Part shown: one piece after another, positions 5,901-62,460 of the stretch | Layout: each line of letters opens with the position of its first letter | How positions within the stretch are numbered: the first letter of the stretch is position 1 | Source of the DNA: Amaranthus tricolor | Taxonomy: Eukaryota > Streptophyta > Magnoliopsida > Caryophyllales > Amaranthaceae | Assembly (NCBI RefSeq): GCF_026212465.1 | Contig: NC_080063.1 | Location: forward strand, 6,289,225 to 6,353,224 | Length of the DNA: 64,000 nucleotides | Direction: 5' to 3' | Translations under genes and position numbers: made by a program | Notes under the pieces: generated by a model | Told to the model about the DNA's origin: nothing | What the model saw: only the letters and a program-made list of their open reading frames with translations | The model's database searches: none

Positions 5901-8900
5901 CATCCCAAACCTCTTATCTTTTCTTCCTGCCTCTTTCTCTATTTTTCTGTGACCGATTCTTACCCATTATGCTTACTTTTATCTTTTCTTTTTCCTCCAC
6001 ATTTGGGGTACTCTTCTTGGTATTTCAAATTCTCTTCATGAACTGTTATTTGTTCCTCACATATATCCTTAATATTTTCTTTAAACTTCAGTTCTATTTT
6101 GCTTTCAATCTCTTCACTAAACCCTGAATCTTCACAAATGGTGTTTTCTTCAATACAAGGAACAGGTTTCTTGCAGTCTTGAAACTTATTCTTGACCATT
6201 TCTTTCATATCTTCAGTGTCTTCTTTTAGTTGTTTGACTAATGCTATTGTCAACTAATTATATTGTTGCAGTAATTTCCAATAATCTGTCTCCCATATTA
6301 TGCCGTCGCCTATTCGGTCACCGAAATCGTACCGCTCTGATACCATTGTAATAGATCAGCCAGACCCGTTACTGAAATTGGATAGTATGGACACTTCCTT
6401 ATTCTTATTATTCCAAAAGCTAATCAATTATTACAAGGGTGGCTCTATATATAGCCTAAGCCCCAAGAGACTACTAAAAAATAACAACTAATCTAATTAC
6501 AAAACATAAAGACTACTTAAATGTGAAATGTCAATAATGCCCTTGGACTATTTGACCCAAGTCATCACAAGAGGTCAAAACTCAAACATGTTGATCTACT
6601 CTACACACCAACTCCTGTGAAGCTCACAAGTCTACCCTGTCTCTCGCCTTCTTTCACGTTCCTATGTTACCTCTGCATTTTCGTTCCCTTTCCATTTTTC
6701 TTCCATATTCACCCTTTCAATATTATAACCAAGTTTTTAAACACCATCTGAACTCCCCCTTGCCAATAGCAATGACTTTCCCAGGTAGCTGCTTCACGTG
6801 AATAAGATATTATTTGATGATTTCAGGTAAAATAGAACCCCAAATGGCCAAGTTTTTATTTACGCTGTTCTTTTTGTACTCTCTTTGTTTCTCTCTAGTT
6901 GGTCATTCCCTTATATTGGGTTAAGGAACCAGAAAAAACAAAGGAGAATCCAGGTTAAAAGTGGTTCAACATGCTCAAGTATTGACTTTTCCATTAAAAG
7001 ATCTAAAAAAATCTAAAAGTTGTTTATAAGCAAGTTTTTTAAAAGGCTCCAGCAATAAAATCATCGATTCATTTCTCAACAACAGAGCTCATCATTTCGT
7101 CAACTACACCTCTGTAAATAGATAACATTCTATTGCCCAAAGCCATTATGTATATCCCAACTAGATTCCCACCAAGACGGGGTTTGAAGGATTAGGAGTA
7201 TGCAAATCTTAATCTTACTAAAACAAAGAGGTTGTTTCCGATTAATCCTTGATAACAAAAACCATATGCAGCCTCACATAAATAAGAATTGCACATGGAT
7301 CGTCCACATGGAAACTTATTGCTCTCCATACCATAATATTCATAAGCATATACCTAAGTACTTTTGGGGAAAGTGGTTGGCAAAAGGCAAAGGTGAGAGA
7401 AAGTTGTGAGTATATGGATAGGAAAAAGGTCAAAAGAAAATGTAAAAGAACATTTAGGAATGCCTGAAACATTTAGTGTTAAGAACATAATGGGAAAAAT
7501 TGAGTAAAACGAGCAAGACTTGAATGCAATAAGTTGTAACAAAGAGAATTTTTGATTTTGAACAAATATCATATGCACTCTAGAATAAAAGGAAGCTTCC
7601 TTTTTATTCAATTTCATGTTGGCTGCATTCCAATTTGATGTGTTCAACCATAAGTACAGTTGATCCAAAAACAACCAAATTACAGTACGTATGGAAGTCA
7701 TTAGTTTTCGACCTAGGATTACTAATAAAAAATCTCATATCTAAAAGGAACCAATGCTCTTTTATCTTATCAGCTAAAAAACTAAATTTCTGCAAGTTCC
7801 CTAAGAGACCACCTGGTTCTGTGTTGGGTTTATGCAAATGTAGTATAAGTTTCTGTCAAAACATAAAAGACGTGATTTCAAAATAAAACAACCCTTTTGA
7901 GCTAAAAATCTGAATTCTTAAAAATCTGGATTCCTAAACAAATGTCGGTACGTGCAAAGGGAGAAAATAAGATGAGAGAGAAGAGAGAAAATAAGCACAC
8001 AAGAGTAGAGAGAGAAAGACCTTTGAGACTTCGATTGTATCATGTTTTCAACACCATGTGATAATGTATTGTCATTTTAACAGCTTTATTAATTCTATTT
8101 TTAGAGTCCTCAACGGTCTAAATCTAATTCCACTTTCTTATCTTATTTTTTAGAGGATTTTCCTACACAAGAATCCAAAACTGACCATTCTTTTTTCTAT
8201 ATATTTTAAAAAGTGTTTCCTACTCAAGATTCCACACAATTTTTATTTATAAAGTTTCATCAGTTTAGTTTTATAATATTTTTAGAAACTAACCTTAGTG
8301 AATTTATCTATTCCATACTAACCATTGCAAAATCCCTATCGGTAGCATTCTGAGTATTCGCTCCCACCCCCACGAACCAAAGTGAATCCAATTCCAATAA
8401 TAATCAATGGATACACATTTTTTAATGCAGTGGAAAGAATGATGAACCATAATCACAGAAGTTTTTGCGAATGAAAAAAAAGGGAGACTAACAGACCAAC
8501 TTTACTAGTACCTTCACTGTGTCATCAGTTGAATAGGCTTCTGCTACATCACAAAGCTTGCCGGTAATATATGAAGCAGAATACTTCCCATAAGTGGTTC
8601 CATACTCCCCCAATACCCAGCAAATAACCTGTCAAAGAATCATCAATACAACAAACTCTAAAAAGGAATGAAGTGATGTTACGGATGATCGAGGGTTGAT
8701 AACGATTCTAAGGGAAATCAAATGACCAGGGATGCAAGTAGAGCTGTTCAAAACAAACCCGACCCGGAATCGAAAATTATCCGACCCGAAAAATGTAAGT
8801 TTTTTAGGTTTACCGAACCGCAATTACCCGAACCGATACTTCACTCGAACCGTTTGATAACCGAAAAGGGAAAAATCGAACTCGAACTGCAACCGAATTT

Positions 8901-11900
8901 TATAACCGACATATAAACCTTAACCGATGTTACCCGAACTGAACAGTGATCGACCCGAGTCAAATCCGACCCGAATTATGCACGTCACCGAATGTAACCT
9001 GACTAAAACCGATTAAGATCGAACTGTTTTTAACCCAAACTGATACAAACCCGATCGATTATTAATCGAACTGTTTTTAACCCGAACTGATACAAACTTG
9101 AACCGATTGTAAATCGAACTGTTATAAATCCGAATCAAATTTTCACCTAATTTTAGCAAATTAAGTCCAACTTCAGTTTTCTAATAATACGGAAGGAAGA
9201 ACACAAGTTCTATACAGAAGAGATTGCATACAGAATATATATATACATATATATATATATATAAACTAATTGAAATAAATTGATCTGCCTATTAGGGCTG
9301 GCAAAAGCTAACCCGACCTGCTAACCTGATCTGAAACCGACTCGAAATTAGCGGGTTTGGGTTTAGATTTTTGACCCAATTAATTAAATGGATCAACCCG
9401 ACCTGATCTGTTTATTAAATGGGTTAGGTTCAGGTTGAATATTTAAACCCGAAAAAAACCTGTTTAACCCATTTATTAAATTTAAGACGGATCAACATTT
9501 GCCAAATACTTCGTAAAACTAAGATAATACCAAATACCATGTATTGAGGGATTTGTCAGCTGAAGATGACTTTCAATAAGAAAGGAAGTTGTCCCACATC
9601 GGCTAAGGGATTTGTCAGCTGAAGATGACTTTCAATAACAAAGGAAGTTGTCCCACATCGGCTATGAAAGATACTAATAAAAGAAAAATCCTTTAAATCA
9701 CTTACACGGATCTCATACCAACTTACGCAGCCACGCCGTGAGCACAAAGCGAACTATTCTTTCGCCTTTTACTAAAGAATAATGTGTGCTCGCTGCAATA
9801 AGTGGCATACGTTTATTTTTGGAGGAAGCCTTTAATTAAGGTTAAATGGGTCAAATGACTTGAAATATATGAATCTAATGACCTAAAAAAAAGTTGGTTA
9901 AATGGGTCATTAGCAGGTTGATCCCATCTGCTACAGATCAGGTCGGGGTTTTAATTTTTGACCCATTAATTAAATGGGTCAGCTTCAGGTTAAGGGTTTA
10001 TTGACCCATTTATATATGATCCGAACCTGAAAATGACTCAACCCGACCTGTTTGACACCCCTATCTGCTATATCTGATAAAACAATCGGTAATTATTTTT
10101 TGTAAATAAATGAGCGTACATCAATTAAAAACCTGACTATTAACTTATTTCGATATTGACCCGATCAATAGTTATCCGTAACCGATAACTACTCGAAAAA
10201 TAAAGCTCGAGCCCGATCTGTACCCGAAAAAACCGAACCAATTAGTAATTGATGACAACCCGAGACCGATTGACACTCGACACGAACTTCAACCGACACC
10301 GAACTGATGCTAACCCGATAGCTTGAATAACCGATCTCTAACCGAACCGTGACTAACCGACTCGACCCGAGTGTGACCCGTTGTAACACACAGCCGAAAA
10401 ATAACCGATCCGAAATGCAACCGAACCGAATAACACCCGTCCGAAACCGACGCGATCAACCGAATGAACACCTCTAGATGCAAGTAACAATGTCGCATCA
10501 ATATGAGTTTTCTCCATCAATTAATATTTGAACCTTATAAGTACCATAGAATCCTTTTCCTTTTAAAATTTGTAAGGTTATAATCAACTAAATAAAATTT
10601 AGAACAATGCCTGCTTTGAGCCTCAAATGTAGCAGTACAAAAGCAGGATATAACATAGACACAAATCTGCACATATCGTTTTTTTATAGTAAGTTCTCGC
10701 CTTTCTCCTTCTCCAAAAGAAAAAATAACAAATGTAAGACCCAACAAAAATATGCTAGAGTAGAACCTTGATAAAATAGAAAGCTTACTTGTAGGAATGT
10801 AGATGGCAGCTTTGGCTCACCAATAAATTGCAAATATGACTCGACCTGCGAACCCAAACAAACGTATAAAACTTAAAATTAATCAACTAAAGTCGTACAT
10901 GACTCATAAACCATTTGAAACAAAATTCTATAAATACAAGGCTTAACAAAAAGCAAAAGCAATTTTGTGCATTTATAAAGTCATCTAATGAGTTATGAAA
11001 CATTCAGTAAGATCTCTCGGTTTTAAAAACCATATCAAACATAATCCTATACATACTGTTTGTCCGTTTAATTGCTATACCTCAAATTAAAATCGTCCTC
11101 TTTAGCTAGAACAGCAATAATATATATATAACTCCACCTAGAAAATTTTAAATGATAATTTGCCCAAAGTTGGATTGATTTTTGCAAGTCTTAAGCTTTA
11201 ACTACTTGCTACAGATATGAAACAGCAATATCATCGCTGAGAAATCACCCCAACATAGAAACTGTTTTTAGGACATGCTTGGTAAATTCTTTTTAATTCA
11301 TAGCAAAGACAAGCTACAAGAGAAAATATCAACACAAAAGAAGCAACACCAGGAACATACAGCAGATAATCTCAGCTGACCATGAGCAGTATCATCTTCC
11401 TCTCCAAATCCCTCCGCAATCAAACGCATTAAATTGTGCACCACCTTTATGTTTACCAGATCACCTGCATGCTCAAATACCTTGTTCATTGTCTGGAGAG
11501 AGAAAACACCATCGTAAGGATCATTAAGAGTTGAATAATATAAAAGGGACGGCCTATATTAATGATGAGTACCTGAATAAACCATTGATTACTAGGGGCA
11601 AATTGCTCAGCCAGTTCAACACACCGTGATGCAATTTCAGTTTTGTAATGATTATCATTAATACTTATCATATAATCGATCATACGATCTACAATAACTT
11701 CAACATTAGAGGACTTGGTCATCTTGTACAGTAGTTCAAATGTTTTTCGCTTGAGGGAATCATCTGGATCCTGTAATTTCAAGTAAGCGGATCAAATAGA
11801 TAAAATATTCTAAAGAAGATGGTTCTTTTTGAAATAAAATGCATAATGTCACAGTGATGAAAGAATCCCAAACAACCAATAAAGGATGAAGTATAGATAG

Positions 11901-19669: not shown

Positions 19670-22540
<2,871 letters not shown>

Positions 22541-25679: not shown

Positions 25680-26261
25680 TTAAACTTGTGTCATTGTATT
25701 AATACGTGCACCCATCATCATCATAGCTTTAAATTCATCAAAATTAATCGTTCCATCACCATCACGATCAACACCATTAATCATTTTTCTACACTCACCT
25801 AAAGAAAAATCATCCCCTAAACTCTTCATAACCATTTGTAATTCTTCAACAGTAATCTTACCATTTCCATCAGCATCGTAAATCGAAAACGCCTCTTTTA
25901 AATTATGTAAAATTTCATCGGAATCAATTCCTTTTGTATTAAGCGCAATAAATTCATTAATATCAATAAATCCATCACCATCGGCATCAACTTCTTTGAT
26001 CATGGAATCAATTTCTTCTTTAGTCACGTCTTGCCCTAAACTTCCCATTAACGACCCTAATTCCGACGAAGAAATTTTTCCGTCGCCATTTACATCGAAT
26101 TTTTTGAAAACATGTTCAAGCTCTTCGGTATTCACATTGAATGATCGACTTGAAGAGGAGAACGAATCGAACGATGTATTTTTTAAATTGGAATTCGCAT
26201 CTTGATCTGATTTTTTTTTTTCTTTCATATTCTTTTTGAAAAATGTTTGGGCAAAACCCAT
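25680..26261 (-). CDS. Calmodulin-like protein, four EF-hands, intronless
   Basis: 193-residue Ca2+ sensor of the plant CML family. Four canonical EF-hand loops are seen: DVNGDGKISSSE (56-67), DADGDGFIDINE (92-103), DADGNGKITVEE (129-140) and DRDGDGTINFDE (165-176). All keep Asp at position 1, Gly at 6 and Glu at 12, so all four should bind Ca2+. The first 48 residues are a Lys- then Ser-rich extension absent from calmodulin. The second residue is Gly, but Phe at position 3 disfavours N-myristoylation. No introns, as usual for CMLs. It most resembles CML25/26-type proteins by length and layout, but I cannot fix the orthologue. The start at 26261 is the first ATG of the frame. Partners and target pathway are unknown. 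Confidence 0.93.
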   Translation of the reverse strand: MGFAQTFFKKNMKEKKKSDQDANSNLKNTSFDSFSSSSRSFNVNTEELEHVFKKFDVNGDGKISSSELGSLMGSLGQDVTKEEIDSMIKEVDADGDGFIDINEFIALNTKGIDSDEILHNLKEAFSIYDADGNGKITVEELQMVMKSLGDDFSLGECRKMINGVDRDGDGTINFDEFKAMMMMGARINTMTQV

Positions 26262-27923
26262 TTGATTTTCTATTCAATTTTGATGTTGAATTTTTGGTTT
26301 TGTTAATGAAATACAAGGAGTAATTGCGTTAGGGGGTGAATGGTTTCAAAAGTGAGGAAAAAAGATAAGAGATTGGAATTTTTATTGTACTTTTTTTAAA
26401 ATTTTGATCCATAAAAATAGGAAAGATTAAAGTATAATTAGAAAAAACATAAAATTGTTGATTTTTTTTTCTATTCTATTATTGATAAAATCTAAAATTA
26501 GATATAGGATAATTTTGTAATTTAAAATTCATTTAAAATTGATGGAATTAAATATCTTTTCTAAATTAACCAATTAAAAAATTATAGGCTAATTTTTAGT
26601 AACATATACGTGGAGTGAATATGAAACTGATATAAGATAACTAAACAAGTTGGTCATAGTAATATGGATGCGATTAAATACATACTCAGGTGCGCGGACG
26701 TAAATATGAAAATTTTATTCACCATAAATGATGAATATGTGGTGGGTATGGACATGGATAAGAACATACTGTATACACCTGTATATTTTAATTAGTTTTA
26801 AAAAACTTAATGTTTATAAAATTAATTAAAGCAAATTGAGATTAATAAAATTCGAAAAACAATTAGTGTCTTATAAATTAGAGTCAAAATGAGAAGAAAA
26901 AAATTATTCATCATCATTTGTAGCATGTGTATATATCATGTTCATTACTTTAAAAACACATACTAAGGTATGTTTAACAATAGAGTTGTTTAGAGTTACT
27001 TGTAATGCTCGACCCTCAACAATCGATAAATAGCAGACTTAGAGAATTTATCTTGATGGTAAATGGTAACTCATAATTCCATCATATCGTGTATGAAGAG
27101 CGATGACCTTACTAAATTTTTTTTATTATGTAAGATTGTCAATAGAGCTTGATATTGCTTTTTAAATTTGTACTTGATACGTTATCTAAGTTGAATTTAT
27201 TAGATTATTTTTTGTTTAGTAATAACAACCTATATAAAAAAAAACTTATTATTATGAATTTACATAGCATTTAAATAACTTTATTTCAAAATAAAGAATG
27301 TCATAATTCGACTCCACTAGAGGCTCAAGAATCTAAATCGAAGTTAAGCTATAGGCATACAATTCGAGATTAAGACAGCGGTGGAGGTGAAAAAAGTTTC
27401 ACTTTTATTCAGATTACAATCAATGTATACATCATTCGATTTGAGTCAAACCTATTGCAATCCCTACTAAAAAGGGGTCGATAATTAAATTACAACTTGA
27501 GTAAGTATCAAAAAGACATTTTCACAACTAGTTTTAATAATTGTTTATTTTTATCATTTACCCAAAAAGATTGCCAAAATTATTTCAAAGTCTCATACAA
27601 GCTCGGTTATAACCACATCATTTTTCTAATTGATTACTTTTAAAATTATAAGTGATATCTCTAACATACTAAATATATATGGATTATGGTCTCACCATGA
27701 GACCGTTTTATTTAAGAATTTGTGAAATTATTATTTAAAATAATCCTGCTCAACTTGAGACGAACTCATATAATTATGCCATTGTTTTTTTTTTTTTGAA
27801 AGGAACCTAAACAAGAGATCAAACACTCAAATCTTCCCTTTATAGCGAAAATATACTTGAACCAACCCAATAGAAAATAAAACAGTAAAATCTTCACTTT
27901 ATAGCAAAAATATACATGAACCA
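26262..27923. other. CML upstream region and intergenic DNA
   Basis: AT-rich, no gene seen. Near the right end a unit of about 57 bp is duplicated (about 27831-27930; CTTTATAGC(G/A)AAAATATAC in both copies), directly beside the transposon at 27934. Confidence 0.6.
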
Positions 27924-31129: not shown

Positions 31130-33142
31130 CAGCTCTAGGCCCGCTCGACCCTAGTGTCCTTACGATGCAGGCGAATCATAGGAGCAGTGTGCTATGGGAT
31201 GTACAGGTCATTGAACTTACCCCTTTTTAATTTAGTACTTCATATTTCTTTAAGTTGAAGCTAACATAATATTTGGATTTAGGTGTCCGATACGGAAACC
31301 ATATACACCAGGCATCCCGATTCAGCTCCGTGGGCGATTGACACACGGATCGTTCCGTACCTTCAGGTTGCGAGGTTGCATGACTTCCACCTGATCGCGT
31401 ACAGGAGAGTCGATCGGGCGCTAGTCACGGCTTTAGTCGAGCGGTGGCGCCAGGAGACTCATACCTTCCACCTACCTATAGGTGAGGCTACCGTCACGTT
31501 ACTTGACGTAGCTGTGCTTACACGGCTTCCCATCGAGGGACATGCCGTGTGCATCGATGGACGCCAATTCGAAAGCTGGCAAGACAAAGTCCAAAGACTA
31601 TTAGGAGTCCGACCTCCGGCTGAGGTAACCAAAGGGAGTAGCCTGCGCGTAACATGGCTTGCACAAAACTTCTCGCAACTCCCTGAAGGTGCTGATGACG
31701 CCACCGTTGAGAGATACGCTAGGGCGTATCTCTTTTATCTGATTGGTGCTGTCTTGTTCTCCGACAAGACTGGCAACCGAGTACAACTATTGTACTTGAC
31801 GTTGCTTGATGCGCCATGGGAGGTCATCTCCGGGTACAGCTGGGGTTCGACAGCCCTAGCGTATCTGTACAGGAGACTTTGTGAAGCTTCACGGAAGAAC
31901 GTGAAGGAGATCGCTGGGCCCCTGATTATTCTACAGGTAATAATAAGTTTACATGTTACCGTTTTGTTTCATTTATTATATATTGTTGTACCTCTTTTAC
32001 TTACTTATAATGGTAATTCATAGCTTTGGGCATGGGAGTATGTTCTCATTGGTCAACCGATGAGGAGTATTGGACGTGGTGCATTTGCGCCACCACTGCT
32101 TCCTCCCCCGCATGTGCCATATGGATCGCGGTGGTCCTTTGAAAGACGAACAAGGACCCACACTGGATCGGGCGTGGGGTTCTACCGCGATCAACTCGAT
32201 CTACTACGTGCTGACCAGGTAACAACTTCACCACAACTTGTTTTATAAGTATCACATTGAGTAATTTATTAATCGAATTTTCACGTTTAGTTTCTATGGG
32301 ACCCTTACCCCCTGAGGCATACGCTGCATTGCCTCAGCACTCGGGCATATTGTCAAGGGCGTGGAGAGCATCTGTACCTCTGCTCTGCTTCGACATAGTC
32401 GAAGTGCATCTCCCTGAGCGCGTACTGCGCCAATTTGGGATGGTATAGGGCATCCCGCCTCCATGTGACACAGAAGCGGAGCTCCACCACTATCGCAAGG
32501 GTCGGGAACCCAAGAACTGGCTAGAGGTCAACTGGCGCCATGTCGCTCGTTGGGAGCACAGGCTAGAGCTGCTGGCCCAAGGTGCGCCGATCGACGCTGC
32601 AGGCGCACCTACTACGGCGGATTACATGCCGTGGTTCCTCTCCATTACTCGTCGATGGATGACACCACGAGGTATCATGGCGGCAGCCCAGTACGCTCCC
32701 GCAGCACCGACGATGACGCACTTTGTAAGTATTCTTCAACATTGATTATTATCCATACAACTTACACGTTATACATTTCATTAATACTTAAGTCTTACTG
32801 CAGGCACAGGGCATTGCATCAGTCATCAGCTCCTCCCAAGAGGAGCCCGTACGGGAGATTGCCCAAGGCATACTCCGAGGGACGCAATTTCAACAATTCA
32901 TTCCGGAATTGACTGCGCCCGACACCACTATGTACGAGTGCGGTTCATCTCCTCATCATGCCGACGTTCATCTTGAGGAGGTTGACTTAACGTGCCCGGA
33001 CTACGGTGCCGGGTCCTCACAGGGGGCCATATCATCACACTATCAATCCCCTCCCCTACCCGAGCGTCATGCGACTGCATCTTACTATCGTAGGAGGCGT
33101 CGTAAACCGTCACAATTAGACAGGGTACAGGAGGAGGATTAG
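31120..33142 (+). pseudogene. Transposon-borne plant mobile domain (PMD) protein, two lesions
   Basis: PMD proteins (MAIN, MAIL1 and the PP7 'long form' homologues) act in plants in gene and transposon silencing with PP7-type phosphatases, and many copies reside in transposons. Exons: 31120-31206, 31283-31936, 32024-32218, 32291-32724, 32804-33142, all GT-AG. Motifs typical of the family: WAIDTRIVPYLQVARL, ALVERWRQETHTFHLP, GEATVTLLDVAVLTRLPIEG, YLFYLIGAVLF, LLYLTLLD, GYSWGSTALAYLYRRLCEAS, FGM..GIPPPCDTEAELH, VNWRHVARWEHR. Two defects are seen: a one-base frame slip early in exon 4 (FLWDPYP then EAYAALPQH, near 32310) and a TAG stop at 32446-32448 after FGMV. The C-terminus ends in a basic RRRRRKPSQL tail. 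GC content is higher than in the host genes nearby. Confidence 0.85.
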
Positions 33143-33692: not shown

Positions 33693-33777
33693 TGTCTCCT
33701 ATGACAGTATTTGAATTAAGAATTTTGAAAGTCATCTCATAATAATTAACGTCAAAACAGGAGCAAGGATTGCAACA
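33693..33777 (+). promoter_or_regulatory. SIEL leader/promoter remnant beside the transposon end
   Basis: Only 85 bp separate the target duplication of element B from the SIEL ATG (33778). No TATA box is obvious. The original 5'UTR and promoter are probably interrupted, with transcription starting in or across the element's end. Confidence 0.45.
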
Positions 33778-36700
33778 ATGGAGCAACAGCTATGGCGGGA
33801 AACCGAGGAGAAGTTTAACACCAGCAATCTCATCGGCGACTCCAACAACAACAACAATAACGCAATCTCTCTCCAAACACTCTCATCATGTCGATCACTT
33901 ATCATCAATCCTTCAACATCAAACCTTACAATTTCGTCCATTTTGAAAACCCTAATTCACACTCTATTTTCCTCAAATCACCGCCATTACCACCACCACA
34001 TTTTCTCTCTCCTCTCCACTCTCTCTTTTCATCACCCTTCCTTCTCACCGTCTATATCTTCTTCCATTCTTTCTCTCTCTTCCTCCCTCATCTCTGACCC
34101 TTCCTCCTCCCCTCGCCTGGCTGCTGCCGCTCTTTCTCTCCTCTTGTCAATCTCTGCCGTTGATGACCTCGATGACAGTCTCCTTGTATCTCTCTGCTTT
34201 CGTCCTTGTATGTCTGTCAGGGTTTGGTTCTTGAACAATGCGCTTAAGTTTTCAATTCGTCCCAATTTGTTGTTGACTGTGATGTTAGGGTTTAGTGAGG
34301 ACCCTATTCCTTGTGTTCGTAAAGCTGCATTGGAGGGCTTGGTTCGTATTTGTGATTCTGGTATTTTTGTAGAGGATTCTGCATTTGTTGAGGGATGTTA
34401 TTTTCGTGCTGTTGAACTTCTTGGTGATCAGCATGATTATGTTCGCTTCAGTGCTGTTCGTGCGGTTAGTTGGCATTTTTTTTCTTTTTTGTATTAAATT
34501 ATTGATTTTTTTTGATGTCTTTGTATAGGAGTTCTGGACATTGTGTAAACGGAAGCTACAATTGAATTGGTGTGACTTGGTCAGTGGTGTAATTTGATTT
34601 GGTTTATAACTCAACTATAGTTTAAAGTTTGAATGGCATGTAATGCTTCTACGGCTGTAGGTGAACTTATCTTCTCGAGTTGTGGAAACTTTGGGAAATA
34701 AATAGAAGCCAAACCTGATTTGACCGGTACTTGGAATAAGTTGGGAAGAACAAAACTTTAATTGTGGTGTTTGTTTTTGAGCTACTGGTAATTGAAAAGG
34801 AAAAGAAGATAGCAAATACATCGAATCCCACAAATTGTGATATAAATTTCACTTATGTTCTGTGATACTCAACTGACGTTAATTTTTTAGGTGAGGGCAT
34901 GGGGATGTATGCATGCTGAGTCGAAGCCAGAGGAAGAAATTAAGGGTACATGTTTCAATGGTGTATTTCTGCAGGTATTTGACATAAATTTGATTGTTGT
35001 TTGCTGTAATATTTTTTATTGCCTTCATGACTTTTATTTGGGTTGGTTGTACTTAGTGTTATTGTCAATGAAGCTTGGTTATTAGGGGGTGCAGTGGATA
35101 TAATATATTAATGTAGTTTGAGTAACAAGCTTGATTTTTAAACCTTTAAATCTTTATCAGGAACTCTTGTTTGTGTGTACTTTTTAAATTTTCATTTTTT
35201 GAAGGAAAAAGGCATTCAATAGTCAGTCACAAAATAGTAACAATTGAAAATTGGAACTATTTCGTTGAAGAATATATCTTTGAAATGACATGTAAAATAT
35301 AAAATATCTATCTGATTGTATTTGTAGCTGAAACCACACAGTTTGCTTCATGTGCACATTCTCACCCTTTAAAAATGTCAAAGTTTTGACCTGGAGATTT
35401 CAATAATTGTCGACTAGATGATGGGCATTTATAAACCCTCTACCCATTTTACTGAAAGTATTGTACAACTGTTCATTCTTATCATGGGTTTTAACTGGTA
35501 AAATTATTATGATCTTTAACAGGCAAAATTGTTTAGCTGAAAATATCAAAGAAATCTACCTTTGGTTGAACATGTGCCAAACATACTACATTTTCCAGGT
35601 TCGTAAAACTGCAACATTAGAGTACAGGGGTTTTAGATAGTGGCTTCCTAATATTTTCACTTGAGACCTCCCAGGATGAACACAGACTCTATAGTTTTTA
35701 CTTTTTAGTTATACTCCTACCCCTAGTTGTTTGTCTGCATGATGCTGATGCATTAGAAACTTTAGACGTGACTCCAGAATTCTGGAATGCAACAAATAAA
35801 TTTAAGGATGTTGATGATTTTCGAATCTAGAGTGGTCCAATGACTGAGGCTTCTCAAAATTTATGTTCCTCTAAGTATTGGCAAACTTGTTTTTGTCTTG
35901 TAGCCTTAGAATGTGTTTTTGCATTGCAATTTGCAAACCAATGCATCTCAAAGATCCCTACGAGTTGCTGTCACACATTATCTTGTTAGGCCAAAAAATA
36001 ATAATAATAAATTATCAATTTTAATCACAAAAATCAGTTAAAAATTAGTTACGATCAGTAAAAATCATTTTTAATCTGTACAACTTAGTTATAATTTATA
36101 ATTAAAAATCAGTTTCAAACAATCAGTTTCAGTTAGTAAGGGTCTTAGTATATTGCAACTTTTTTTCCGTAGTGTGTGATGTGAGATCATAGTGCAAAAA
36201 TGCAGTAACGACACAGTGATGTACTAACGAGAGTGATATGGTTATCTAAAAATTAAATGTCGGCCGAAAACATGAGATATTTCTTGAAACAAACCTAAAT
36301 GCGGTTTTTTTACACCTTTACAATGCGACACATATCGATTTGTTTTTTAGAAACTTTTATGAGGCGTCCGATGTGGTGCGGCGCCTATGTGGTGCGGCCT
36401 TGTGTTTGCTTTATGCGGTAGAATGATTGATGAATTGCTTTTTTTTTTTTTCATTGTGGGATTGAATGATCATGCTTGTCATTTCCTTATCTTTTTTGTG
36501 TTTTATGGGTGTCATCCTATAATTGTGATCAATGGTTTTTGTTACCTGTTTCCTGAAAATTGTGTTGATTTTTCCCTCCAGATCTGTTCTATGGTCAGAG
36601 ATATGAATGTGGAGGTCAGGGTGGAGGCTTTTACTGCCCTTGGAAAAATTGCATATATCTCTGGTGATATTTTGTTGCAGACCATGTCAAAAAGGGTCCT

Positions 36701-45700: not shown

Positions 45701-46766
45701 TTATTGGCTTTTTTAATGGTAAGGTGTTTACAACCTTACTCATATAGGGCTTCGCATGGATTCTATGTTGAAGTTGTTTCCTTGGGGTTGAGACTTTTTA
45801 CCATTGCTAAACTTGGCTTTTGTTCTGCTTCTCAGGTACTGTAAAGAATCTCTTATGACAGTAAAGGCTGGTTCTTTTGCACATGCTGGTGTAGTTGCTT
45901 TTGCATTACAATATATTCGTATCGTAAAGATTCTCACGGAGGTTTGGGAAATCTTTGTGGTATCCAAACATTGTCTATTGTCCGAAATTGGTGACATGGA
46001 CCTGTTACTTGGAAAGCTAGACAAAGCATTACTTGATTTCAGATATAGGTTCATTGGGTTAAGTGAAAATGTTGAGCTTATTATTATGGAGTTGCTGCTT
46101 CTCAATTATCTGCTGCAACTTTCGAGTCCTTATACTCACGGGAAAGCCTTTCATAAATTATGTACCGTGTTTTCTTATGTGTGCCACTTAAGAAATGCAA
46201 AATCCATTGCATGCTCCGACTTTGTTAACCAGTTTGCAGAACTATCCTATGATGGCTGCTTGTCTCTTGAGGCAACTCGCAACCCTATCCAGTTGAAAAA
46301 ACTGCTAGACTTATTTTTGCTCAAGGAGTTGGGAGTCTCTCAAGGAATCAAGCACATTAAAGCAGATATTTGTGTTCTAGGCTTTGACTCTGTAAGTCCT
46401 CTGCAATTCATTTCAGGATTGCCTGTGGCAATTCCTCTTGAAATTACTCTCTATAACATGACAAATGATCATAGACTATGGCTGAAGATTACGTTGAATG
46501 ACAAGCTGACAGAGTATTTCTTCTTGGATATGGAAGAATATGGAGGCCCTGGAGAGCCTAGGCAATTTAAGTGCACCTTGCCATTCTATAGAACTCCAGA
46601 AGTAGTTGCTTTCACATTGAGAATTAGTATGGGTATGGAATGTTTGTATGAGGATTTGCATTTGTGGAATGGCCATGGTGGCCCTAAACATGCCCTGACT
46701 TTCATTAGCCCGGAAATAGAAGTGGATTTCTCTAACCTCAAGACCCCCCAACATGATGAATGTTAA
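33778..46766 (+). CDS. SIEL: SIEL / DSP4, ARM-HEAT repeat protein related to Integrator subunit 4
   Basis: In Arabidopsis SIEL binds SHORT-ROOT and aids its cell-to-cell movement. The same gene is described as DSP4, an INTS4-like part of the snRNA 3'-processing complex. Exons: 33778-34464, 34891-34974, 36582-36815, 38010-38198, 40730-40870, 41161-41250, 41875-42091, 42185-42368, 45836-46766. They join in frame to 918 residues, close to the family length. The N-terminus is Ser/Asn-rich, followed by ARM/HEAT motifs (VRKAALEGLVRICDSG, VRFSAVRAVRAWGCMHAE, VRDMNVEVRVEAFTALGKI, VRLEALKTIHHIVL, IRSRAFNLLES). A C-terminal beta-rich module (PLQFISGLPVAIPLEITLYN) ends at ...KTPQHDEC. Introns up to 3.5 kb carry old MITEs and a gypsy remnant. 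The frame is intact. Confidence 0.93.
36188..36415. repeat. MITE of the CATAGTG(T/C)AAAAA family, old copy
   Basis: Starts CATAGTGCAAAAATGCAGTAACG and ends GGTGCGGCCTTGTGTTTGCTTTATG. It shares internal AAATGTCGG and TTTTACACCTTTACAATGCGA with the cleaner copy at 54978-55175. No target duplication remains. Lies in a SIEL intron. Confidence 0.65.
36974..37381. repeat. Fold-back (inverted-repeat) element in a SIEL intron
   Basis: Outer arms CAACATTCCATTACCTCA and its inverse TGAGGTAATGGAATGTTG bound the unit. The centre is a nearly perfect hairpin: GCACATGATT(T)AATGAGTCATTTTAAT (from about 37139) inverted at 37173-37201. The whole 400 bp could fold into one long hairpin. The left arm resembles 7127-7300. 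Confidence 0.75.
38694..38920. repeat. Stowaway-like MITE fragment
   Basis: Left end GTACTTCCTCCGTTCCATATTA, with AAAACATAGTGAAGTTGGATC and TTTGATTCGTCTTAATGCA inside, a common plant Stowaway layout. The right end is lost. Confidence 0.55.
39278..39521. repeat. Stowaway-like MITE with a heptamer array
   Basis: Left end TACTCCTTCTCACTCAATTTGC. The right end as reverse complement is TAGCTCCTCTGTCTCGGCC. Near the right end are about seven AAAAGC(C/T) heptamers (39447-39493). Confidence 0.6.
43131..43234. repeat. Right part of a CATAGTG-family MITE
   Basis: Contains TTTTTTACACCCTTACAATGCGA and ends GCGATGCGATGCTGCCTTATTTTGACTATG, which matches the right end of the copy at 54978-55175. Left end not found. 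A further left end of this family (CATAGTGCAAAAATAAGGCCGC) starts at 44820. Confidence 0.55.
43235..44819 (-). mobile_element. Ty3/gypsy retrotransposon remnant in SIEL intron 8
   Basis: On the minus strand near 43430-43285 the text reads VKWKRMPPHEAT, then (frameshifted) NNQQLNL and LEDKVIEAKGNV, the conserved end of gypsy polyproteins after the integrase. It runs into TGTAATGACCC (about 43272), an LTR start like that of the element at 4526-6569. Only about 38 bp of this LTR remain before a MITE piece. The rest to 44819 is unclear decayed sequence (for example frame 44128-43826 on the minus strand). Left and right limits are set by MITE ends and are approximate. Confidence 0.55.

Positions 46767-47966: not shown

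Positions 47967-47970
<4 letters not shown>
46767..47970. other. SIEL 3' flank and start of the convergent intergenic region
   Basis: No further conserved coding sequence. Short frames after the SIEL stop (for example 46976-47188) are likely 3'UTR. SIEL and the DCD-kelch gene converge across 46767-50953. Confidence 0.55.

Positions 47971-48006
<36 letters not shown>
47971..48006. repeat. (TA)n tract at the MITE insertion point
   Basis: About 17 TA units abutting the element at 48007. A shorter TA run continues on the other side (48451-48472). Confidence 0.9.
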
Positions 48007-48008
<2 letters not shown>

Positions 48009-48440
48009 AAGTTCAAGTGAAAACCATTCTTATATGAGAACCGTAGAACCAATCTGTCTGACAAAAAAGTGTTACTTTTATACTAAAAAGGTGTAAAAAA
48101 GGTGTTACTTTTAGGCAAAAAAGTTACTTTTTTTTAGAAAAAAGATGATATTTTAGGCAAAAAATGTTACTTTAAGAAAAAATTCTGAAAAAACTTCTAA
48201 AAAGGTGTTATTTTTCGGAAAAAACGTGTTACTTTGTATTATGTTTATGTTTTTGAAAATTATATTTTTTTTTTCTGAAAGTAACACTTTTTCTTTAAAT
48301 AGTATCAACTTTTTTTTAAAAACAAAAATAATATTTTTTTTGTTTAAAGTAACACCTTTTTAAAAAAAAGTAACACATTTTTATCAAGTAGATTGGTTCT
48401 CACGGTTTTCATATATGCTTAGTTCTCACCGGAACTACCT
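48007..48440. mobile_element. Fold-back MITE inserted in (TA)n
   Basis: Inverted ends of about 50 bp: GGAAGTTCAAGTGAAAACC...GAGAACCGTAGAACCAATCT, and as reverse complement GGTAGTTCCGGTGAGAACT...AAAACCGTGAGAACCAATCT. The interior is repeats of GTGTTACTTTT on the left and their inverse AAAGTAACACTTTTT on the right, so the whole unit is near-palindromic. No coding capacity. TA flanks hide the target duplication. Confidence 0.75.
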
Positions 48441-48922
48441 TCTCTCTCTCTATATGTATATATATATATACTAAAATTTGGCGTTTGAATATCTGTAGCT
48501 AATTTGTGGACTTAAAAGTTTGGAATGGAGTTGAGGTGTGAATCGTTGCTAGTGCTACTTGAAAACAAATTGTATTCCTTTATTAAATATTACAATTGTA
48601 TAGCTATGGAATGAATTATACATAGTAACTTTCAACTCTCCCAAACTCTATGTATATAGTGTTAGGATTACCATGTGTTATAAGGAGCCACATGTTGTCC
48701 AGGCCTTATTTGTAAGTTGATTCTAAGACGATAAGGTTTTGTATAGTGTCTTGCACAATCATATATTCATATCCGATACCTAACTAAGGCGGCAATGGAT
48801 TATATCCATCGTTTACCAGCAACTGCGTAAAATGATGTCTATATGTCTATGTGAAGGAATAATCATGTTTCCATCACTATCGGCCCACCATTGATCTTGT
48901 AAAAAAAACTCGATATTGAGAA

Positions 48923-59900: not shown

Positions 59901-62460
59901 GTTTCTCTTATTGAAAATTTTAATTTATTCTTTCATGTGTTGATTTGCTTTTAAATTCCTAACATACTGATGATCATGCTCTATCAAATTTAGAATTGAG
60001 GCAACAATATCTTTTAAATAGTGATAGATTTATACAACTCCTTTTTCGCCTCCAAATATCTTAAATCGTTTTCAGTATTAAACGTGTTTTTTGTATATCC
60101 TCTTCCATATTTTTTATTAATAAGTAACTATTAGAACTTTTTTCTTAGATATTCAGGTGGGTCATAGAGAATTGATCACCAAGTCATGTATGTACCCTTA
60201 AGTCCACTGAGATGACAGAAATGATGACGGCCCTTATCATTTAAATTATGTATCTAGATTTTAACTACCTCTACAAGTGAAATTGACAAAGAAAAGCATT
60301 CCATTAATGTTTTCACTTATCAAGATTTTAAAAAGACTCAAGTCAACTTGTCCTATGTCACTCTGTATCCAATCAAGCAATTTACAGCAAGTCTAGTGTT
60401 GGATTGGATTGGATCATCAGATGAAACTGCCAAAACTTGAGGTTTCATTGAATGAAGGTGCTTACTAGCAATCAGCAAACCAAGAAGCAAAACCAATTTC
60501 CGGTCTTTTTTGACATGCATCGTTAATGCATTGTCATCTCAATAATCAGCCATGCAATCAATAAAAACATTAGCATAACATAGTGTCATCTCAAGTATAA
60601 AGCTAAGGCTAATAGAACATAAACAGGCGACCTAGTTTCTAGATTGTAAGTCCCAAAACCAGATTCAACAGGAGGTAGAGGTTCTAGATAAAACTAGGCT
60701 GTCCACAAATAAACAAATAAATGCACTATGGAGACAGCCCTGTGCACCAAGCATCTCCGGAGAAGGGTCCTAGCACAGAAGTGTAATGGAGGAAAACCTC
60801 ACTCTACATTTCTGCAAGAGGCTCCTTCCCGGACTGAAACCCGAACCCGTGAACACACAAGACACTTGAACCAGTGCGTCAAGGCTCCCCTTCAAATAGT
60901 TCCATTAAGGGACAAAGACATAGCAAAGAAGTGTATAAAGGGCAGATTACCAGACTTTGTTGAGTTTCCTGCATCAGATCCATCGTTTTGATTGCTTCTT
61001 GCTTGAAGTTCTTCAGCACTCGTAACTGAATATAAGCAAAAACTATCATCTTGTGCGGTTTTATCATATGTACTTTGAATACAATTACAGGAAATGAGTA
61101 TTAGATAACAACCTCCTCTATCATGGACTGTATTTCCGATGGCTTATTAAGGTTTTCCTTGATATTCTCTTCTTGACCGATTTTCTGTTCTGGTAAATCA
61201 TCATCTTCATTATGCTTCATAATGATATTTCCAACCTCTTGTAATGGGCTTGAGGGACATGATTCAAAAGGCCCACAATTCACACCCAACTTTTGAAAAT
61301 TCTCATCAATCAAATCCATTTCATTCCTTTGCATTATTTCCAGATCAGTGCCTACTGGCTGGTGAGTTTCATCAAGGCAGGAAGTGGAACCAGCAGTGAG
61401 AGCCAAATGCATTTTTGACACATTGCAAGGAGTGGGGCCATCATATGCATTTGAAAAATTAAATTCCACTGCTTCCCTAGACTTCAGTAATGTTGGATTT
61501 TGATTTATTATCGGCCAATCTGCTTTGGCCATTACGGCAGATGGTGCAACTACTTGAGTTGAAAACAGAGCAATTAACTTGCTCACTTGAGCATGATCAA
61601 GCTCAAACTTAAAATGTGAATGACTATAATAATTCCCTTTAATAATTGGCGCAAACTGACTCTCTTGCAGAGGACGACAATACTTTTGGACGCGTATTTG
61701 GACCTATGTTTCAAATAATAAACAGGATTAAAAATGCTGAAAGATCACACCTCGCCATTAAGGTGTCCCATTAGAGCTAGAGAACTAACATGCTTGTATT
61801 ACCTGAGCAGGGAATGGTGTTTTCTTTGAACCGTCTTGTGTCCAACCATAGGGATTAATATTCATTTGACCAGGGCTAGCAGCCTCAAAGATACCGTGAA
61901 GTTGCCTTTTACTGTAGTTGAACAGAAACAAAGGCAAACCTGGATGAATAATTTTGACATATGCAAAGTGTGGACCAGGCAAACCTGTAAAGAAACCAAT
62001 TATGGGGTGAATAAGAAAACCAACAAGGAGTGCTAAAGATTTAAACATGCTCAGAAACATGTAAAAATGCCAAATTGACACATAAAAAAAAAAGCACCAA
62101 AATTATAGTTGAAACACCACAAATACATCATGATGCTATATATTTGTAGTTTCTTAAAAGAAGATATTCACAAAATAGGATGATCATATTTCAGGTGGCA
62201 ACATATGGAATATGGACAAAAAAATTGTGAAGAATGAGATGTGAATAAGTATACAATTTTGCTTAAAGAAAAGAAGTAAATATAAGTTATAACTAACCAA
62301 AGAGTTGCTTAGTAAGACATTCATTGATGGTCATATCTGTGCAACCAAATATGACCCCACTTAACAGAGCTGGTGCCAAATTTCTAAAAGGTGAAATCGT
62401 AGCAACTGATTTGATGGGTGTACTTCCCTTGAAACCAACCCTTTTTTTCGCGGTAGCCAT
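50954..62460 (-). CDS. DCD-domain and kelch-repeat protein (10 coding exons)
   Basis: Member of the plant DCD (Development and Cell Death) family, linked to stress and cell-death responses. The layout resembles the Arabidopsis DCD-kelch protein At5g01660. Exons: 62460-62298, 61984-61803, 61703-61113, 61025-60951, 57346-57034, 56955-56756, 56264-56188, 53782-53681, 51358-51172, 51043-50954, all GT-AG, joining to 659 residues. The DCD domain starts at about residue 30 (LLSGVIFGCTDMTINECLTK) and continues with GLPGPHFAYVKIIHPGLPLF, GIFEAASPGQMNINPYGW and TPFPAQ. Then come an acidic linker, a short coiled coil (exons 4-5) and six kelch repeats (LAGGSDG, YAVGGGND, FAIGGGNG, YAVGGYDG, YAIGGYDG, YAIGGMGE), each with a Trp or aromatic partner, consistent with a six-bladed propeller. 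No break is seen. Confidence 0.93.
52157..52461. mobile_element. Tourist-like (PIF/Harbinger) MITE
   Basis: 305 bp. Ends are GGAGGTGTTTGCTATGAG and (reverse complement) GGGGGTGTTTGGTAGTTG. Both are flanked by TTA (52154-52156 and 52462-52464), the family's target duplication. Noncoding, in DCD-kelch intron 8. Confidence 0.8.
52371..52670. repeat. Tandem duplication of the MITE right end plus flank
   Basis: The MITE's last ~90 bp and ~50 bp of flank recur with a period of about 168 bp (ATTAGGTAAATGGA at 52394 and 52562; ACTACCAAA(C/T)..CCCCTTA in both; AGTTCTC and GTCCAA downstream in both). The copies have diverged. Confidence 0.7.
54142..55480 (-). mobile_element. LINE (non-LTR retrotransposon) 3' fossil
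   Basis: Minus-strand translation, in several frames, gives ARLQLVNAVLMSMIN, LKKVNAICSSCL, VCKSKEGILGVRDLEIWNLA and GKIAWHIS, then CGG..SISHLFF and LSYNIWQCRNESAWNHR. This is the order of the region after the reverse transcriptase of plant LINEs, including the zf-RVT zinc-binding motif. Stops and frame shifts are many. A short T run at 54142 may be the poly-A tail. Upstream ORFs are absent (5' truncated). A MITE interrupts it at 54978-55175. Confidence 0.75.
54978..55175. mobile_element. hAT-type MITE inserted in the LINE fossil
   Basis: 198 bp with perfect 13-bp inverted ends CATAGTGTAAAAA and a perfect 8-bp target duplication CCGTGAAC (54970-54977 and 55176-55183). This is the cleanest copy of a family also seen at 36188, 43131 and 44820. 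Noncoding. Confidence 0.88.
55525..55925. repeat. Tandem duplication, period about 207 bp
   Basis: Two diverged copies (about 55525-55720 and 55733-55925) share GCCGAAAAGACATTTTTTGCC, GATGCCCCATTATTATAATCA and CATGCATGGTCTATCAAAGC. Function unknown; in DCD-kelch intron 7. Confidence 0.85.
57347..60650. other. DCD-kelch intron 4, larger part
   Basis: AT-rich. The block 58600-58860 is GC-richer and includes a TATGGGATCTTGTCTCACATG stretch of the kind seen in plant LTRs, but no paired LTR, PBS or coding domain was found. No gene recognised. Confidence 0.5.
60690..60890 (-). mobile_element. tRNA-related SINE
   Basis: On the minus strand a box A-like TGACGCACTGGTTCA (60881-60867) is followed about 20 bp later by a box B-like GGGTTCGGGTTTC (60848-60836). 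This order and spacing match a Pol III promoter in tRNA-derived SINEs. No tRNA cloverleaf follows. The 3' limit is approximate. In DCD-kelch intron 4. Confidence 0.65.

Follow-up and report, generated by a model that had tools for sequence, protein, structure and literature searches.

Transposons are known to pick up genes, and among the hAT elements of plants such cargo has been described in several forms. In maize, two Ds2 and nine Ds-l4 elements of the hAT superfamily hold captured gene DNA that was acquired at the DNA level, in a frame of short terminal inverted repeats (TIRs), subterminal repeats and internal filler, and gene capture is called a rare hAT feature in the same report (PMC3260210). 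Pack-TYPE elements, among them Pack-hAT, are non-autonomous and have TIRs that enclose DNA from host genes, and a target duplication of 8 nt is expected for Pack-hAT (PMC8903248). Grapevine Hatvine-6, also of the hAT family, has variable internal regions that match genic as well as non-genic host DNA (PMC2528002), and the DNA transposon Dada is physically tied to genes for small nuclear RNAs (snRNAs) (PMC3706591). In this study we analysed a stretch of 64 kb from Amaranthus tricolor (assembly GCF_026212465.1, contig NC_080063.1, positions 6,289,225 to 6,353,224), the whole of which is hereafter called the window. It contains a full-length U5 snRNA gene at the centre of a non-autonomous hAT-like element (positions 9293-10063 of the window, the inner element), and this element is in turn nested in a second hAT-like element (the outer element) within an intron of a gene for AP-4 epsilon. 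We consider it probable that the inner element acquired the U5 gene together with its promoter through DNA. Genes have been picked up by transposons before, but it is unusual to find one for a splicing RNA as cargo.

The U5 gene was the sole match at gathering level between the 64-kb window and Rfam. It matched family RF00020 over the entire model (1-117 of 117) and scored 80.4 bits, the gathering score being 40 (E-value 3.9e-12). On the Rfam alignment 27 of the 30 consensus pairs are standard, and the three exceptions are a C-U pair, located in the lower stem, and two A-A pairs where the 3' hairpin begins; five of the seven pairs of this hairpin are standard. All eight pairs of the apical stem are standard, loop I (CGCCTTTTACT, 9763-9773) is intact, and the Sm site ATTTTTGG is intact at 9815-9822. 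A preliminary description of this locus, made from its letters, had placed a U5 gene with an invariant loop I, a perfect 8-bp stem and an Sm site at the centre of the inner element, and each of these points was borne out by the full-model match and its alignment. A 20-nt core around loop I, searched with up to three mismatches, occurs once in the window and had no match in any of 100 shuffled sequences. Six further Rfam matches beside U5 in the region 8700-10500 (E-values up to 5) scored at most 22 bits and far below gathering.

The inner element measures 771 bp and ends in TIRs (TAGGGCTGGCAAA / TAGGGGTGTCAAA) that match at 11 of 13 positions. With up to two mismatches and on either strand the motif TTAAATGGGTYA was found 30 times in the window, nine of these times within the inner element, where four copies precede U5 and five follow it, in line with the hAT subterminal repeats earlier proposed for both arms. 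Of the ten exact occurrences of ATGGGTYA in the window, seven are inside the element. The motif was picked after inspection, and the probabilities computed for it are descriptive only; likewise the 365-bp centre is free of motifs by definition, its borders having been drawn at motifs. The longest stop-to-stop frame across the element comprises 65 amino acids. Judged from its letters, 9293-10063 gives the picture of a non-autonomous hAT element with subterminal repeats and a putatively foreign centre. The 8-bp duplication said to flank the unit did not prove exact: the flanks (CTGCCTAT / TCTGCTAT) agree at 4 of 8 positions when ungapped and at 8 of 8 only with one inserted or deleted base, which is at chance level. 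Because the inner target duplication is imperfect, mobilisation as a 9293-10063 unit is not proven.

The outer element, about 0.96 kb long without the inner one, is flanked by a perfect target duplication (Table 1). Its arms contain 11 of the 13 AACCGAACYG-like sites (at most one mismatch) of the window. The window was scanned for TIR/duplication pairs with starts at TA or CA, ends at TA or TG, a span of 200-2500, TIRs with at least 11 of 13 positions matching, and starts up to approximately position 61400. As a control, six first-order Markov-simulated sequences of the same length, devoid of TA microsatellites, were scanned in the same way. The window yielded 12974 pairs versus 497-559 in the simulations, an excess that, among the pairs listed, is due to TA microsatellites in the window. 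Among the matches listed, the outer element is the only exact case of TIR and duplication outside the TA microsatellites, and none was obtained in the six simulations; the pairs other than those listed were judged, from the order of the list, to start only within the microsatellite interval 19684-20112. The nesting of the inner element in a hAT-like element, as first suggested in the preliminary description, was in this way substantiated by the TIRs and the perfect duplication GATGCAAG of 8739-10476, and the location of U5 inside the nested non-autonomous element is supported by the arms and the TIRs, with no signs of a separate insertion.

Both elements lie within one intron of AP-4 epsilon, a gene on the minus strand, so U5 is antisense to it. 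The intron (8629-10788) has 2160 bp, or 414 bp when the outer insertion and one copy of its duplication are subtracted. The upstream exons match AP-4 epsilon proteins in a protein search, the best match being from Rhododendron. We take the two exons that border the intron, 8512-8628 and 10789-10845, to belong to AP-4 epsilon as well, judging from the known sequence of this protein. In Amaranthus palmeri, hAT-Ac and hAT-Tip100 elements have been described in the surroundings of EPSPS (PMC5240378), so the hAT setting as such is ordinary.

Table 1. Positions of the U5 gene, its promoter elements, the two hAT-like elements and the adjoining exons in the window.
Feature	Position	Strand	Remarks
U5 snRNA	9729-9845	+	Rfam RF00020; 27/30 pairs standard
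Sm site	9815-9822	+	ATTTTTGG, intact
Plant snRNA upstream sequence element (USE)	9650-9660	+	GTCCCACATCG; second copy 9591-9601
59-bp tandem duplication	9547-9664	+	One USE per copy; copies 58/59 identical
TATA-like element	9692-9699	+	TTTAAATC; 31 nt after USE; weak match
Right junction	9840-9853	+	GGTTAAATGGGTCA; 3' hairpin runs into hAT motif; 14-base sequence recurs at 9896-9909
3' box candidate	9852-9864	+	CAAATGACTTGAA; one mismatch from plant 3' box, inside right arm; chance-level
Inner non-autonomous hAT-like element with U5	9293-10063		TIR 11/13; flanks match only with one-base indel
Left arm of inner element	9293-9476		Subterminal motif TTAAATGGGTYA in both orientations; 4/9 motifs of element
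Centre of inner element (putative cargo)	9477-9841	+	365 bp between last left-arm and first right-arm motif
Right arm of inner element	9842-10063		Subterminal motifs; 5/9 motifs of element
Outer non-autonomous hAT-like element	8739-10476		TIR 11/13; perfect 8-bp duplication; arms rich in AACCGAACYG
Outer target duplication	left 8731-8738, right 10477-10484		GATGCAAG; perfect 8 bp
Exon beyond insertion	8512-8628	-	VICWVLGEYGTTYGKYSASYITGKLCDVAEAYSTDDTVK (VICWVLGEYGT...); CAG before, GT after
Exon before intron	10789-10845	-	VESYLQFIGEPKLPSTFLQ, then GTAAGC

Plant snRNA genes of the RNA polymerase II (Pol II) type have a USE of the form RTCCCACATCG, a spacing of 33-34 bp between USE and TATA box, and the TATA box at about -30. 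The USE consensus is printed as RTCCACATCG in PMC545797. With regard to the plant USE/TATA promoter assigned to the U5 gene in the preliminary description, the USE was confirmed and is present twice, and of the TATA box only a weak match, 31 nt after the USE, was found. The doubling of the USE by the 59-bp duplication is probably recent and could change the strength of the promoter. The promoter looks usable from its elements, and initiation of U5 transcription looks possible. The 3' box of plant snRNA genes is given as CA(N)3-10AGTNNAA (PMC5079582), and no exact occurrence was found in 9817-9900; of 48-nt stretches taken at random from the window, 31% contain a match as good as the single one-mismatch candidate in Table 1. 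Because U5 is not accompanied by an exact 3' box, correct formation of the 3' end of a U5 transcript appears doubtful. The preliminary description holds for the most part; the 59-bp duplication, the missing exact 3' box and the AP-4 epsilon location are additions to it. A gapped pattern of USE and Sm site had no match in the window, the allowed gap being too short for this result to be informative.

With respect to 3'-end formation we also observed that the window harbours an open reading frame (ORF) with HEAT repeats (33715-34494, plus strand) and an INTS4_C domain of the Integrator subunit 4 family (45792-46763, plus strand; E-value 9e-11), which are perhaps parts of one INTS4/SIEL-like gene. 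In metazoans, the processing of snRNA 3' ends requires Integrator subunit 4 (PMC5079582). An INTS4-like neighbour of a U5 copy is odd and most likely a coincidence.

At the right junction the final bases of the U5 3' hairpin, GGTT, are at the same time the start of the 14-base hAT motif GGTTAAATGGGTCA. This arrangement suggests a route by which the U5 gene may have entered the element. In the inner hAT element, the U5 gene with its USE/TATA promoter would have replaced ordinary filler, likely by DNA capture, for instance by template switching to a U5 locus during the repair of an excision or replication break. The join may have been guided by microhomology at the GGTT common to the U5 hairpin end and the hAT motif, and the native downstream flank of U5 would have been lost at this join. 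The inner element, with the cargo aboard, would then have moved into the outer hAT-like element in the AP-4 epsilon intron, with a hAT transposase supplied from elsewhere.

When compared with the systems introduced above, the inner element resembles the maize Ds2 and Ds-l4 elements in all the traits named there, including, on our reading, a cargo acquired through DNA, and differs from them in its cargo, an entire Pol II RNA gene along with the promoter. Short TIRs are common to both, those of Ac/Ds being given as C/TAGGGATGAAA (PMC3260210). An identity of the inner element with Ac/Ds was rejected, since it has no copy of the Ac hexamer AAACGG. Pack-TYPE elements are described with fragments of coding genes (PMC8903248), whereas the gene here is a non-coding snRNA gene; the inner element works like a Pack-hAT but falls outside the strict definition, which has coding-gene cargo. 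Unlike the inner element, the members of Hatvine-6 have a common transposase coding sequence (PMC2528002). Dada inserts into snRNA and tRNA genes with duplications of 6-7 bp, and its U6 and U1 types are without TIRs (PMC3706591). An assignment of the inner element to Dada was rejected, as the U5 gene is uninterrupted and internal to the transposon, and TIRs are present. In the main texts consulted of the Pack-TYPE and Hatvine-6 papers (PMC8903248, PMC2528002) and of a plant gene-capture review from 2026 (PMC13317346), the term snRNA has no occurrence. More generally, in the literature, mostly that outside subscription journals, no transposon with U5 or another snRNA gene as cargo was found among the titles and abstract openings listed. 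Short interspersed elements with snRNA-derived heads, in which snRNA gene sequence is part of a mobile element, were reportedly described by Kojima in 2015; these are retroposons that move via RNA, in contrast to the DNA-transposon arms and the promoter found here.

One observation weighs against the U5 assignment: the minimum-energy free fold of 9725-9845 (z -2.48, with 4 of 200 shuffles folding equally well) pairs a long lower stem and not the canonical apical stem. Others weigh against a capture of U5 by the inner element. A run of eight A lies at 9885-9892, inside the right arm and 40 nt past U5, and on its left side the putatively captured piece has no sharply fixed border, which falls somewhere in 9477-9547. 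A one-indel duplication like that of the inner element is by itself at chance level, with three such cases in the six simulated sequences, and the status of the two arms as one element rests on a single copy. The free fold is the sole point in favour of the U5 match being a chance look-alike, a reading that is refuted by the Rfam match over the full model, with its E-value, together with the absence of the loop-I core from all shuffled sequences, and that can practically be dismissed. A retrocopy or a separate insertion of U5 was rejected too. The flanks of the U5 gene with its promoter (9490-9552 versus 9834-9890) have no word above 5 bp in common, no poly-A is present at the U5 border, and because the promoter is included the unit is not an RNA copy; a duplication of its own or a poly-A tail, which the preliminary description regarded as the mark of a separate U5 insertion, was looked for at this border and not seen. 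Taken more broadly, to include a composite element in which two hAT ends have come to flank a U5 gene that was already there, an origin by separate events seems quite improbable to us. The blurred left border and the imperfect inner duplication would fit it, and compound Ds elements with trapped extraneous DNA are known (PMC3260210), but the same lack of common flank words and of border poly-A, the occurrence of one motif in both arms, and the location of the whole unit within another hAT element in an intron, and not in a visible U5 locus, speak against it.

Two further readings concern what became of the gene. That U5 is a dead passenger, a pseudogene that is poorly or not transcribed and has no effect on the host, differs from the capture reading on function only, and we give it an even chance. 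The missing exact 3' box with its chance-level lone candidate, the weak TATA box and a free fold without the canonical apical stem all point this way, as does the fact that hAT copies are commonly silenced; on the other side, 27 of 30 pairs, loop I, the Sm site and the USE are intact, and no disabling change was seen in the RNA itself. Alternatively, the inner element could belong to a multicopy family whose U5-bearing copies have multiplied and spread snRNA promoters or U5 genes across the genome, perhaps with a contribution to the pool of functional U5. Intact U5 structure and USE are as expected of young or selected cargo, and the USE is doubled, but when the inner element was compared with the rest of the window (outside 8701-10500) nothing beyond 18-24 bp was matched (best E-value 0.041), and no copy was seen in the material searched, i.e., this remainder of the 64-kb window and collections of viral and prokaryote sequences. 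In these collections an exact 24-mer core word of U5 had no match in either IMG/VR or GTDB, and a 21-mer of the USE context had none in IMG/VR. An 18-mer core word of U5 matched three loci in IMG/VR and 17 in GTDB; 19 of these 20 loci were put to Rfam and contained no U5, a result that is uninformative on plants. A translated frame that spans the USEs and runs into U5 had no relatives among 5.8 billion proteins. We regard a multicopy family as rather unlikely and, until copies come to light, treat the locus as a unique or low-copy capture. Unlikely, too, is the most far-reaching version, in which an amaranth-like hAT family would have promoter-competent U5 as its standard cargo, supply part of the U5 pool and seed snRNA-type Pol II promoters.

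The window is plant nuclear DNA, and other features of it were recorded alongside. TA-rich microsatellites are located at approximately 19670-20120, 22400-22530 and 47970-48470. A CML25-like protein is encoded at 25680-26258 (minus strand) and, among the best 120 of 719 matches, is 94% identical to a protein from Amaranthus hypochondriacus, followed by Beta with 81%. This points to an Amaranthus-like plant and supersedes the indication from the AP-4 epsilon match to Rhododendron. A pair of TIRs (11/13) at 25730-27262 starts within the ORF of the CML25-like protein and has flanks that match at 7 of 8 positions ungapped and at 8 of 8 if one indel is allowed; since the simulations yield the same class, it is probably due to chance. 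A SWIM zinc finger (20457-20969, minus strand; E-value 5e-07), a type of domain that occurs in MULE transposases, and a plant mobile domain (PMD; 31283-32020, plus strand; E-value 1.5e-44) are possibly remnants of transposon-related genes. A fragment of a Development and cell death (DCD) domain lies at 61101-61700 (minus strand; E-value 3.4e-12).

Plant snRNA genes are multicopy, and the origin of their separate placement is, as we judge it, not settled. In Arabidopsis, U5 has 14 copies, and each of the five major snRNAs is present in more than ten (PMC545797). Such genes could be dispersed directly if a DNA transposon carried one of them along with its promoter, whereas retro-copies lose the promoter.
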